Source: Flavobacteriales bacterium UBA4466
GTDB taxonomy: Bacteria; Bacteroidota; Bacteroidia; Flavobacteriales_D; Crocinitomicaceae
Direction of reading: 5' to 3'
Length of the DNA stretch: 64,000 nucleotides
Assembly: GCA_905182335.1 (NCBI GenBank)
Contig: CAJJBE010000006.1
Coordinates: forward strand, 62,001-126,000
Below, piece after piece: positions 4,908 through 61,771 of the stretch (position 1 is the stretch's first letter; every line of letters begins with the position of its first letter). Under the pieces are notes generated by a model that was not told the DNA's origin, did not search any database, and worked only from the letters and a program-made list of their open reading frames with translations. The position numbers and the translations under genes were made by a program.

Positions 4908-5099
4908 TTAATTTAAAGAAAAGTAGATTGACGTTTCTTGAGTTGATTTTGATTCTTCACCTCTCTTAATTGCATCCATTAATTTAGCTACTTGAAAAAT
5001 AGTCAAGTTACTACTTTGTCCCTCTACTTTATGTTGCGATAATTTATATTTCGCTGTCTTCATTGTATTACTCATTATATCTATCCCTGTTAATTGCAT
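4908..5099 (-). CDS. Small hypothetical protein (up to 63 aa)
   Basis: A short ORF whose product I do not recognise. Two ATG codons are possible: 5099 (63 aa) or 5075 (55 aa, starting MSNTMKTAKYK). The protein is polar, with a basic N-terminus and one amphipathic stretch (LTIFQVAKLMDAIKRG), and has no signal peptide or membrane segment. Support for it being real comes from a good intrinsic terminator just downstream (4855-4885) and non-coding sequence on both sides. It stands alone between the XRE pseudogene and the DUF3820 gene, so it could once have been regulated by, or partnered with, that broken regulator. This last point is speculation. Confidence 0.45.
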   Translation of the reverse strand: MQLTGIDIMSNTMKTAKYKLSQHKVEGQSSNLTIFQVAKLMDAIKRGEESKSTQETSIYFSLN

Positions 5100-5274
5100 A
5101 TCTGATAAAATATTAATTACAAGGGCGTTTACGGCGCCTAGTTCTAGAATGTTACAAAATAATTAAAAAAAAGTTTTTCAGTAAACAAACATCTAACTAC
5201 ATAAATGATATTATATATTGTAAAGTACTGTTAATCAAATTATTAACAATATGTTTGTGTGAGGTCATAGAATG

Positions 5275-6955: not shown

Positions 6956-7188
6956 TATTTGTCTTTCGAAAATTGATAAATTCTTTCTATCCATAGGTTT
7001 TCCACTTTAGCTCTAGCCCATGGAGTTTTCCTTAAGAATGTCAAGCTACTCTTTAGTGTTGGGTTGTTTTTAAAACAATTAATATTGACTAAATACCCCA
7101 TGTGATCCCATCCAAACTCTGACTCAAGTTCTTCCACGATAGACTTAAGTGTTTGACCATGAAGAGGATTGTTGGGTTGTTCAGCCAT
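6955..7188 (-). CDS. VF530 / DUF2132 family DNA-binding-like protein
   Basis: A 77-residue protein with the signature NNPLHGQTLKSIVEEL, then GW, INCFKNNPTLKSSLTFLRK and TPWAR. This is diagnostic of the VF530 (DUF2132) family, small helical proteins with a SAP-like or HTH-like fold and no established function. Both ends overlap neighbours by one base in TAATG junctions: its ATG with the ettA stop at 7188, and its stop with the pepD ATG at 6955. The three proteins are therefore probably made in a fixed order from one mRNA. Confidence 0.88.
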   Translation of the reverse strand: MAEQPNNPLHGQTLKSIVEELESEFGWDHMGYLVNINCFKNNPTLKSSLTFLRKTPWARAKVENLWIERIYQFSKDK

Positions 7189-8873
7189 TATTTCATTAAT
7201 TTCTTGTAGCGAATTCTTTTTGGTGCCTTATCACCTAAACGTTTTTTACGATTCTCTTCATATTCTGTATATGAACCCTCGAAAGAGTACACTTCAGAAT
7301 CACCTTCAAAAGCAAGTATATGAGTGCAAATTCGATCTAAGAACCATCTATCATGGGAAATAACTACAGCACAACCTGCGAAGTTCTGAATCCCCTCCTC
7401 TAGTGCTCTTAAAGTGTTAATATCAATATCATTTGTAGGCTCATCAAGTAAAAGAACGTTTGCCTCGATTTTTAATGTCATAGCTAAGTGAAGCCTATTT
7501 CTCTCACCACCGGATAAAACACCTACTTTTTTATTTTGATCTGAACCGCTAAAATTGAATTTAGATAGATAAGCACGAGAATTTATTTTTTGATTCCCTA
7601 TCTCTACAAACTCTAACCCGCTTGATACAACATCAAAAACTGTTCTTTCTGGCTTAATGTCATCATGAGTTTGATCCACATAGCCTAATTTAACGGTATC
7701 TCCCACTTTGAACTCACCAGAATCTGGCATCAATTCATTCATAATCATTTTAAATATTGTTGTCTTACCAGCACCATTAGGCCCAACAATACCAACAATA
7801 CCTGCAGGAGGTAAACTAAAGCTTAAATCACCATAAAGTAATTTATCACCAAATGCTTTTGAAACATGCTCTGCATCAATTACATTATTACCCAAACGAG
7901 GTCCGTTTGGAATAGGCATCTCAAGAACATCTTCTTTATCCTTAATGTCTTGAGATAGCATTTTGTCATAATTAGCAATACGCGCTTTGTTCTTCGCATG
8001 CCTTCCTTTTGGATTCATTTTAACCCATTCTAGCTCACGAGCAAGCATTTTCTGACGCTTAGATTCAGTTTTTTCTTCTGATTTCAAACGATTTCCTTTT
8101 TGCTCTAACCAAGACGAATAATTTCCCTTCCAAGGAATACCCTCTCCACGATCAAGTTCTAGTATCCAGCCAGCAACATTGTCAAGGAAATACCTATCGT
8201 GTGTCACTGCAATTACAGTTCCTTTATATTGCTGTAGATGTTGTTCTAACCACTCAATTGACTCAGCATCTAAGTGATTGGTAGGCTCATCTAATAGTAG
8301 AATGTCAGGGTTCTTAAGTAGTAATCGACATAGAGCAACTCTTCTGCGCTCACCTCCAGACAAAGTCCCAATCAACTGATCATCTGGTGGACATCTTAGT
8401 GCGTCCATTGCACGCTCAAGTTTAGTATCTAACTCCCAAGCATCTTGGGAGTCAATGATATCTTGAACCTCACCCTGTCTAGCAATTAACTTATCCATTT
8501 TGTCTGGGTTATTTATAATATCCTCATCCATAAATGAATTATTGATTTGTTCGAATTCTGCTAAAATATCAACAGTATCCTGAACACCTTCTGTAACAAT
8601 TTCTTTTACTGTTCTGGTTTCATCTAATTCTGGTTCCTGAGAAAGATAGCCGACCGAATAGCCATCCGAGAAAACAACATCTCCCTTGTACGACTTATCT
8701 AAACCAGCTATAATCTTCATCACTGTTGATTTACCTGAACCATTTAAGCCAATTATGCCAATTTTAGCACCATAGTAAAATGAAAGGTAAATGTTTTTGA
8801 TAATTTGCTTTCCTTGTGGAGTATCTTTAGATACTCCAACCATTGAAAATATAATCTTCTTATCGTCTGCCAT
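7188..8873 (-). CDS. ettA: Energy-dependent translational throttle protein EttA (ABC-F ATPase)
   Basis: A 561-residue protein with two ABC ATPase domains and no membrane segments, typical of ABC-F factors. In the EttA group these bind the ribosomal E site and gate entry into elongation according to the ATP/ADP ratio. The first domain shows GLNGSGKST, LSGGERRR and DEPTNHLD. The second shows GPNGAGKT, LSGGERNR and DEPTNDID. The linker between them carries the charged ABC-F interdomain helices. The frame is open up to 8963, but the ATG at 8873 (MADDKKIIFSM) gives the family length and N-terminus. The stop shares one base with the start of the VF530 gene. Confidence 0.94.
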   Translation of the reverse strand: MADDKKIIFSMVGVSKDTPQGKQIIKNIYLSFYYGAKIGIIGLNGSGKSTVMKIIAGLDKSYKGDVVFSDGYSVGYLSQEPELDETRTVKEIVTEGVQDTVDILAEFEQINNSFMDEDIINNPDKMDKLIARQGEVQDIIDSQDAWELDTKLERAMDALRCPPDDQLIGTLSGGERRRVALCRLLLKNPDILLLDEPTNHLDAESIEWLEQHLQQYKGTVIAVTHDRYFLDNVAGWILELDRGEGIPWKGNYSSWLEQKGNRLKSEEKTESKRQKMLARELEWVKMNPKGRHAKNKARIANYDKMLSQDIKDKEDVLEMPIPNGPRLGNNVIDAEHVSKAFGDKLLYGDLSFSLPPAGIVGIVGPNGAGKTTIFKMIMNELMPDSGEFKVGDTVKLGYVDQTHDDIKPERTVFDVVSSGLEFVEIGNQKINSRAYLSKFNFSGSDQNKKVGVLSGGERNRLHLAMTLKIEANVLLLDEPTNDIDINTLRALEEGIQNFAGCAVVISHDRWFLDRICTHILAFEGDSEVYSFEGSYTEYEENRKKRLGDKAPKRIRYKKLMK

Positions 8874-8944: not shown

Positions 8945-9235
8945 TTAATGAAAAACACCACACTGTGATAGCTTAATCGCATAATTCACTAAAATCAATA
9001 ATACGGTAAGGCTAAAAAGGAAAACAATAACCTTTGCTCCATTTTCAAATTTAAAAATTAAATGCAGAACAAGAGTAAAAACCATTATTATAAATGGAAT
9101 TAATGCAGGAAACAAAACAAAACTACCTAGTAACTCCCCCTCAAATAACAATTCAAGTGAACGCTGAAAACCACAGGTTAAACAGTCGATACCGAAACCT
9201 TTTTTCCAACTACATTTTATATAGTAAAGAGTAAT
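8945..9235 (-). CDS. DUF2752 membrane protein with apparent ATT start
   Basis: The minus-strand frame open from 9259 to 8945 encodes the DUF2752 signature GIDCLTCGFQRSLELL, then GELLGSFVLFPALIPF and a second membrane segment. A gene caller restricted to ATG, GTG or TTG would begin at a TTG (9151), after the cysteine motif, and lose the family's defining part. No ATG, GTG or TTG exists upstream in frame. An ATT at 9235-9233 shares its A with the stop of the preceding gene (TAATT), exactly where other junctions here have TAATG, and gives a normal length of 96 residues. It may be a genuine non-canonical start or a recently mutated ATG. Two transmembrane segments are likely. The function of DUF2752 is unknown. 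Confidence 0.7.
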   Translation of the reverse strand: MTLYYIKCSWKKGFGIDCLTCGFQRSLELLFEGELLGSFVLFPALIPFIIMVFTLVLHLIFKFENGAKVIVFLFSLTVLLILVNYAIKLSQCGVFH

Positions 9236-9981
9236 TATGAGTAATATGTTGTTGGTGAATCATAAAAAACATCAGATGCCGTTGATATTGCAAATATGAT
9301 AAATATTAATGCGAAAATGAGATATAGTGCAGAGATGGAAACACCAATTACAGCACATACATGTCCAGCTTTAGAGTTCTTCCAAGACGCTTCGTAAAAC
9401 TGAGGGTTATGGGAATATATAAATTTATTTTTTTGATGTAAAACAAGTGCAATTATTCCGCAAATAAGTCCGGGTATTCCATAGAATACACATCCTACAA
9501 TTGAAATAATACCAAGAACAAGAACTGCTGTTGCATTCGGCAAGACCTTCGCTTCTCCTTCATTCAAATTACTGCTTGACAAATCTGGATCAAGGCTACT
9601 ATCTTCAGGGATTAGCTCATCTATATATTTAGCACTGCTAAATCCTAATATCATAATAAAAATAGGGCTTAAAAACACAAGTCCAAGTGCAAACCCTATA
9701 TCTTTCCTAAATACCTTGGCTAGCTCAATATAAATAATTATTAAAATTACAAAGTTAGCAAAGGGGATAAAAAGTAATGCTATCCACCAGATAGGCTTCT
9801 TGACTATTTCTAATAATACAATCGCATTATAAACAGGCACGATAGATGCCCATCCTGGTTTTCCCGCCTTTTCATAGATTTTCCATTGGGCAATAATCAT
9901 AAACACGACTAATGGTATTAATACTAACATTGTCAATATTGACAATTGAATTGGCCCAAAGGCAGCTAAACTTAAATTCAT
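9235..9981 (-). CDS. Membrane protein with DUF5684 and CCC-motif/DUF4190-like domains
   Basis: A 248-residue integral membrane protein. Residues 15-115 match DUF5684: several membrane helices around KAGKPGWASIVPVYN and PIWWIALLFIPFANF. A polar linker (about 120-145) leads into a second module, LPNATAVLVLGIISIVGC then YGIPGLICGIIALVL, a cytoplasmic loop, and CAVIGVSISALY. This second module resembles the small CCC-motif membrane proteins common near DUF2752 genes in flavobacteria. The cysteine triplet that names that group is reduced to one Cys here. The stop overlaps the putative ATT start of the DUF2752 gene. The second module is a close paralog of the protein at 10209-10556. The function is unknown. 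Confidence 0.75.
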   Translation of the reverse strand: MNLSLAAFGPIQLSILTMLVLIPLVVFMIIAQWKIYEKAGKPGWASIVPVYNAIVLLEIVKKPIWWIALLFIPFANFVILIIIYIELAKVFRKDIGFALGLVFLSPIFIMILGFSSAKYIDELIPEDSSLDPDLSSSNLNEGEAKVLPNATAVLVLGIISIVGCVFYGIPGLICGIIALVLHQKNKFIYSHNPQFYEASWKNSKAGHVCAVIGVSISALYLIFALIFIIFAISTASDVFYDSPTTYYS

Positions 9982-10208: not shown

Positions 10209-10556
10209 CTATAATACAGTTGAAACCACCGCTATTGCTATAAAGAATACGATCATAAAATAGATGAAATACAATGCTGAAATGGACACTCCAATAATAG
10301 CACACACATATCCTGCTCTTGCATTTTCCCAAGAAGCAGCGTACTTAAGAGGGTTTGTCGCGTAAACTTCTTTATTCCTCTTGTGTAAAATAAGAGCGAT
10401 CACTCCACAAATCAATCCAACTACACCATAGAATAGACATCCTACAATTGACATGATACCAAGAACTAAGACAGCTGTAGCATTAGGTAACGTTTCTTTT
10501 TCATTTTGATTATCATTACCCAAATCTACGCTAGACACATTATTAGATTCACTCAT
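10209..10556 (-). CDS. CCC-motif/DUF4190-like small membrane protein
   Basis: A 115-residue protein with a polar N-terminus (residues 1-22), two membrane helices in TLPNATAVLVLGIMSIVGC and FYGVVGLICGVIALIL, a charged loop (KRNKEVYATNPLKYAASWENA), and a third helical stretch from CAIIGVSISALY. It is a paralog of the C-terminal half of the 248-residue protein at 9235-9981. The conserved NATAVLVLGI, CAxIGVSISALY and asparagine-rich loop point to recent duplication. The family's usual Cys triplet is reduced to a single Cys. Its function is unknown. Confidence 0.75.
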   Translation of the reverse strand: MSESNNVSSVDLGNDNQNEKETLPNATAVLVLGIMSIVGCLFYGVVGLICGVIALILHKRNKEVYATNPLKYAASWENARAGYVCAIIGVSISALYFIYFMIVFFIAIAVVSTVL

Positions 10557-43972: not shown

Positions 43973-44017
43973 TTTATTTCTTTTTATTTATATATAATTT
44001 CTAAACAAATTATTCTG

Positions 44018-44089
44018 TAGCCCATAGGAGAATCGAACTCCTGTTACCAGGATGAAAACCTGGCGTCCTAACCACTAGACGAATGGGCC
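44018..44089 (-). tRNA. tRNA-Glu (anticodon TTC), copy 2
   Basis: The minus-strand sequence folds as a full cloverleaf: GGCCCAT acceptor paired with ATGGGCT, CCAGG/CCTGG anticodon stem around TTTTCAT with anticodon TTC, and GGTTCGATT-type T-arm (AGTTCGATTCT). CCA is not encoded. It is identical to the copy 22 bases upstream. Confidence 0.97.
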
Positions 44090-44111
44090 AATATCAACTA
44101 TTCAAACTTAG

Positions 44112-44183
44112 TAGCCCATAGGAGAATCGAACTCCTGTTACCAGGATGAAAACCTGGCGTCCTAACCACTAGACGAATGGGCC
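44112..44183 (-). tRNA. tRNA-Glu (anticodon TTC), copy 1
   Basis: The same cloverleaf as the second copy: GGCCCAT acceptor, anticodon TTC, standard T-arm, no encoded CCA. It is the first gene after the consensus promoter at 44217-44247. Confidence 0.97.
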
Positions 44184-61276: not shown

Positions 61277-61771
61277 ATGCAAGAAATACTTTCAAATCAA
61301 GAGATTGAACAAAAAATAAATCGTTTAGCACATCAAATTATCGAGAACTCCTTCGAAGAAAATGAAATTCACATTGGTGGAATTGTTGGTAACGGCGTAC
61401 TGCTTGCAAGTAAACTTTCATTAATAATCACAAAACATTCTAATTTAAAAGTAAATCCGTTTGAAATCATAATGAATAAGTCAGAGCCCTGGTCAGAGCC
61501 CATTACACTTTCTTCTGAAGTTGATTCATTAAAAAATGGTTTCATCATTCTCGTGGATGATGTTTTAAATTCGGGAAAGACAATGCAATATGCTCTTACA
61601 GAAATCTTAAGGTTCCCAACGAAAGCAATAAAAACTGTTGCGCTTGTCGACAGGAAACACCGTAAATTCCCAATTAAAGCAGATTTTGTAGGGCTTGAAT
61701 TATCAACAACATTAAAAGAACGCGTAGAGATTATTTTTAAAGAATCAGAACAAAAAGCATATTTAGTATAA
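61277..61771 (+). CDS. Phosphoribosyltransferase family protein (PyrR-like)
   Basis: A 164-residue type-I PRTase. The PRPP-binding loop is FIILVDDVLNSGKTMQYAL and the rest has the PyrR-like layout with VALVDRKHRKFPIKADF. ATG 61277 (MQEILSNQE) is chosen over the long frame from 61205, which adds a non-family N-terminus. Known PyrR proteins regulate pyrimidine genes or make UMP. The divergent carB gene makes this attractive, but no PyrR leader structure is visible. The stop shares a base with murQ. Confidence 0.85.
   Translation: MQEILSNQEIEQKINRLAHQIIENSFEENEIHIGGIVGNGVLLASKLSLIITKHSNLKVNPFEIIMNKSEPWSEPITLSSEVDSLKNGFIILVDDVLNSGKTMQYALTEILRFPTKAIKTVALVDRKHRKFPIKADFVGLELSTTLKERVEIIFKESEQKAYLV

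Follow-up and report, generated by a model that had tools for sequence, protein, structure and literature searches.

A DUF2752 gene lacking a canonical start codon at its junction with a CCC motif membrane protein gene in Flavobacteriales bacterium UBA4466

The DUF2752 locus and its neighbors

The window is the whole stretch of DNA analyzed here, 64,000 nucleotides of contig CAJJBE010000006.1 (positions 62,001 to 126,000) from the Crocinitomicaceae genome Flavobacteriales bacterium UBA4466, a relative of Fluviicola. On its minus strand, a gene for a membrane protein with a CCC motif is followed directly by a small DUF2752 gene and then by the gene for the ABC-F protein EttA. The DUF2752 frame is open from 9259 to its stop at 8945, and its family identity is supported by a PF10825 match of 39.9 bits (gathering cut-off 27). 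The features at and around the junction, all on the minus strand, are as follows.

10209..10556, minus: second CCC motif membrane protein (NF040945, 75.2 bits)
9235..9981, minus: upstream DUF5684 and CCC motif membrane protein, ending in TAA at 9237-9235 (PF18936, 91.8 bits; NF040945, 83.2 bits, cut-off 65)
9260..9262, minus: in-frame TGA closing the DUF2752 frame upstream (sequence)
9236..9238, minus: candidate start ATA, whose ATAA makes a 4-base overlap with the upstream stop (sequence)
9233..9235, minus: candidate start ATT, with a 1-base overlap with the upstream TAA and an A at -3 (sequence)
9221..9223, minus: TAT where relatives carry a start codon, TTG or ATG (alignment of starts)
9218..9220, minus: candidate start ATA, at the place of the GTG start of relative G017 (sequence, alignment)
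8945..9235, minus: DUF2752 gene of 96 codons plus stop, if ATT is the start (PF10825, open frame)
9158..9214, minus: conserved CxW...CxxCGFQRS segment, in which columns invariant in 28 relatives are kept (alignment)
7188..8873, minus: downstream EttA (ABC-F; TIGR03719, 912.6 bits)

The initial annotation reported that the DUF2752 frame holds no ATG, GTG, or TTG ahead of its CxxCGFQRS motif, and direct reading of the codons up to the first cysteine (TTC ACC AAC AAC ATA TTA CTC ATA ATT ACT CTT TAC TAT ATA AAA) confirms this. The first canonical codon of the frame is a TTG at 9151, which lies 3' of the motif; a start there would delete the conserved segment and was ruled out. The shared base of the ATT at 9235-9233 and the stop of the upstream gene (TAATT at 9237-9233) is likewise present in the sequence, as are the five TAATG junctions described elsewhere in the window (at 61771, 53714, 58129, 6955, and 7188). 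The TAATT is unsurprising when taken alone, because TT follows 11.6% of the window's TAA triplets, and the chance that 15 random codons of this DNA include no ATG, GTG, or TTG is 0.48. The presence of ATT and ATA candidates is also weak evidence of their use, since the two codons make up 6.4% of triplets in this AT-rich DNA. The oddity is the lack of a start in a conserved gene, as against an in-frame start in 46 of the 46 other homologues that were read.

RNA folding of the junction gives similar pairing for every start candidate and does not separate them. The structure predicted by AlphaFold for the DUF2752 protein is helical (mean pLDDT 82), which agrees with the family's conserved CxxCG.QR motif and the helices expected after it, with low confidence over the N-terminus, and a PDB search with this model returned no match at E <= 0.001. 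Searches of a paper library on DUF2752 and on “CCC motif membrane protein” found no paper under either name, and PADLOC, run on three proteins, gave no match. Elsewhere in the window, two tandem tRNA-Glu (ttc) genes lie on the minus strand at 44017-44183.

Start codons in relatives

A family search with the window protein matched 45 of 240 genomes at 48 places, and start codons were read in 47, the second copy in G023 (L002) and G080:C519 (L111), which showed no motif, being left out of the reading. The named records among the matches are Crocinitomicaceae, Fluviicola, and other Flavobacteriales or Bacteroidetes assemblies. The window homologue is the only one of the 47 without an in-frame canonical start. 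In 33 of the 36 homologues of the CxW type, the codon exactly three positions before the first cysteine is TTG (13) or ATG (20), and a canonical start lies three (or two) codons before that cysteine in 34 of the 35 CxW homologues other than the window's own, which reads TAT ATA AAA TGT. G017 has TCG at the usual place and GTG one codon on; G088 (L097) has TAT at the usual place, with in-frame TTG and GTG only further upstream, inside the CCC gene. Within the genus, the 20 genomes with a DUF2752 gene use TTG (13), ATG (5), or GTG (1), with none in the remaining one. Neither the ATT nor the ATA codons are conserved among relatives, which use TTG, ATG, or GTG.

These comparisons bear on the history of the junction. 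Ten of the 13 genus members with a TTG start form a TTGA overlap with the upstream TGA. A start coupled to the upstream stop is therefore likely to be the ancestral geometry, and the ancestral junction was most likely this 4-base overlap, not a TAATG at the position of the window's ATT. Three relatives (G012, G021, and G119) do have TAATG, and the ATG there occupies the place three codons before the cysteine. The initial annotation had framed the locus as either a near-cognate start or a newly silenced gene, the latter after a single mutation had destroyed the ATG of a TAATG. That choice still stands, but the one-mutation history does not, as the start in relatives lies 12 bases 3' of the window's ATT. 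Their different, conserved start weakens the case for ATT, and an ATT start would also add four residues found in no close relative. Because the relatives' start is absent from the window, however, ATT at 9235 stays a candidate, together with ATA at 9238 and ATA at 9220.

Conservation and partnership with the CCC gene

Apart from its start, the frame is undamaged. Among alignment positions that do not vary across the 28 other relatives, the start is the only one at which the window protein differs, and 16 of 16 non-start columns are kept; no stop was found over the 89 codons from the first cysteine, and a search of the frame and the invariant columns for a disabling lesion besides the missing start found none. 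If the gene has been silenced, a test on stops and the 16 invariant columns limits (P=0.05) the neutral divergence accumulated since then to less than about 0.066 per site. The window branch has an omega of 0.034 against a background of 0.059, and omega=1 is rejected (LRT 8.55) with synonymous change saturated; the estimate fits purifying selection on this branch. A broken copy of the gene served as a control: the DUF2752 gene of G007 (L034 1498-1770) has an internal TAG after CGFQRSL, and its omega is 0.106, with omega=1 not rejected (LRT 1.99). The omega test is weak: synonymous change has reached saturation, constraint is also apparent in the broken G007 copy, and the test is blind to recent loss.

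DUF2752 is present in 20 of the 34 genus genomes and absent from 14. CCC proteins over the cut-off occur in the identical 20 genomes, neither gene ever being found alone (Fisher P 7e-10, uncorrected for kinship); at a looser E-value, CCC is found in 26 of 34 (P 1.7e-4). The window matches the NF040945/PF10825 gene pair of the genus in order, adjacency, and domain matches, with DUF2752 directly downstream of an intact CCC partner over the cut-off, yet it is the only member of the set without a canonical DUF2752 start. The exact co-occurrence suggests that the two proteins work together, likely as a functional pair, and makes a CCC gene without its mate unusual.

Canonical starts elsewhere in the genus and genome

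The idea that ATT starts are habitual in this genome is weak. In the genus, infC, a classic example of a near-cognate start in other organisms, has an ATG start at each of the 29 loci that could be read (30 fetched), and no other accepted non-canonical start was found among 110 homologue-supported frames sampled from the window and 400 kb of contig C2. Four of the 110 have no canonical start close to where the alignment begins: the DUF2752 gene, window 4911-5162, a gene at about 4800-4451 on the minus strand, and L131:10349-10655, which is perhaps antisense.

The frame at 4908-5162 (minus) encodes a small protein (MQLTG...) that is conserved, with matches in 31 of the 34 genus genomes. G000 and G015 share strong conservation just 5' of its ATG, but stops interrupt the match in many other relatives, so this stretch is perhaps conserved 5' regulatory DNA. 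The gene at about 4800-4451, which we take to be HTH/XRE-like, is frameshifted relative to an intact homologue in G023 and is either a pseudogene or the product of an assembly indel.

Near-cognate initiation or recent loss

It is observed, then, that stop and start overlap tightly in the genus and that in the window the old start is gone from an otherwise intact gene. Two explanations are near balance. The reading given slight preference, at close to an even chance, is that DUF2752 is still made, from a near-cognate start tied to termination of the CCC gene. Ribosomes just ending that upstream gene would restart on DUF2752 at one of three codons: the ATT at 9235, which overlaps the stop by 1 base and has A at -3; the ATA at 9238, with its 4-base overlap; or the ATA at 9220, where G017 carries GTG. 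The DUF2752 protein would be made at a low level, and the two small membrane proteins would act together. The retained invariant columns, the omega estimate, the co-occurrence of CCC and DUF2752, and the intact CCC partner count in its favor; the loss of DUF2752 in relatives, as with the internal TAG of G007, and the ATG starts of infC in the genus count against it.

The other explanation, somewhat less probable but a serious contender, is very recent silencing: the start would have been lost when the junction was remodeled (TTG or ATG to TAT, with a longer tail on the upstream gene than relatives have), and the frame has yet to decay. The TAT at the usual start place agrees with this, as do the absence of DUF2752 from 14 of 34 genus genomes and its breakage in G007, the blindness of the omega test to so recent an event, and the frameshifted HTH-type gene, which lies on the same strand at a distance of about 4.4 kb; the G007 TAG and this frameshift show that decay, or base errors, do occur. 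Point start losses also make up about 16% of start-loss plus stop-gain changes. Against silencing, a change from TTG to TAT needs two substitutions, yet every other column invariant in relatives is unchanged, and no other genus genome has a CCC partner over the cut-off without a DUF2752 gene.

An assembly error masking a normal start is improbable. The genome is in 7 contigs at 91.92% completeness, and the frameshifted HTH gene could itself be such an error, but no homopolymer longer than four lies between the in-frame TGA and the first cysteine, and only one split-looking case occurs among the 96, 66, and 78 reference frames of G023, G015, and G014 that match this genome's own DNA. By our reading, that single case lies antisense to minus-strand frames; also by our reading, a one-base change in an AAAA run would give access to an upstream ATG, but with a long N-terminal extension unlike anything in relatives. 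Expression of DUF2752 as a frameshift fusion with the CCC protein is more improbable still. The open frames do overlap, at 9259-9235, with DUF2752 read at -1 relative to the upstream gene, but the overlap contains no XXXYYYZ heptamer, and the fusion was rejected. A TTTTTTA run at 9269-9263 is out of phase, a shift there would meet the TGA at 9262-9260 immediately, and relatives initiate DUF2752 separately.

Comparison with known near-cognate and coupled starts

The pcnB gene of E. coli reportedly begins at a near-cognate AUU/AUA codon. In S. aureus, a working AUU start is described for cvfC1, which likewise encodes a small protein, and AUA starts for ccpN and infC, with AUU/AUA site reporters giving roughly 10-30% of AUG levels (PMC13009471). 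These are the codons proposed here, but the S. aureus examples, as described in that source, rely on extended Shine-Dalgarno pairing, with measured initiation and a conserved odd codon. The window differs on each point: Bacteroidia ribosomes do not use Shine-Dalgarno pairing (PMC9976891), which counts against the near-cognate reading, the start is predicted from sequence alone, and relatives use TTG or ATG. Also against it, a reconstruction of start switches has only 2 of 68,906 ancestral starts turning into AUU (our sum from PMC5622118), although annotation would hide AUU switches of this kind.

For the coupling itself, -4 and -1 overlaps are described as the commonest, coupling as requiring overlaps or very short distances, and overlap coupling as well supported in other prokaryotes (PMC10666635). 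The same co-directed stop/start overlap is seen here, as TTGA in relatives and as TAATT or ATAA in the window; the junction forms named in that source's account of overlaps use ATG or GTG (TAATG, TGATG, TAGTG, ATGA, GTGA), and ATT and ATA are not among them. An A at -3 aids initiation in F. johnsoniae (PMC6847099), and the window's ATT candidate has one. A stronger version of the near-cognate reading, which we consider unlikely, is that, in a phylum that makes no use of Shine-Dalgarno pairing, the TTG start of a coupled gene pair was swapped for AUU (or AUA) on the upstream stop and that stop-directed reinitiation alone would pick the start, so that the codon itself would hardly matter.

Implications

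Both readings are phenomena of already known kinds. A silenced gene would make the window an example of ordinary gene loss, caught at its onset. Production of the protein would make the junction a natural test of near-cognate restart by a terminating ribosome unaided by Shine-Dalgarno pairing, and genes of this sort would escape gene finders limited to ATG, GTG, and TTG.
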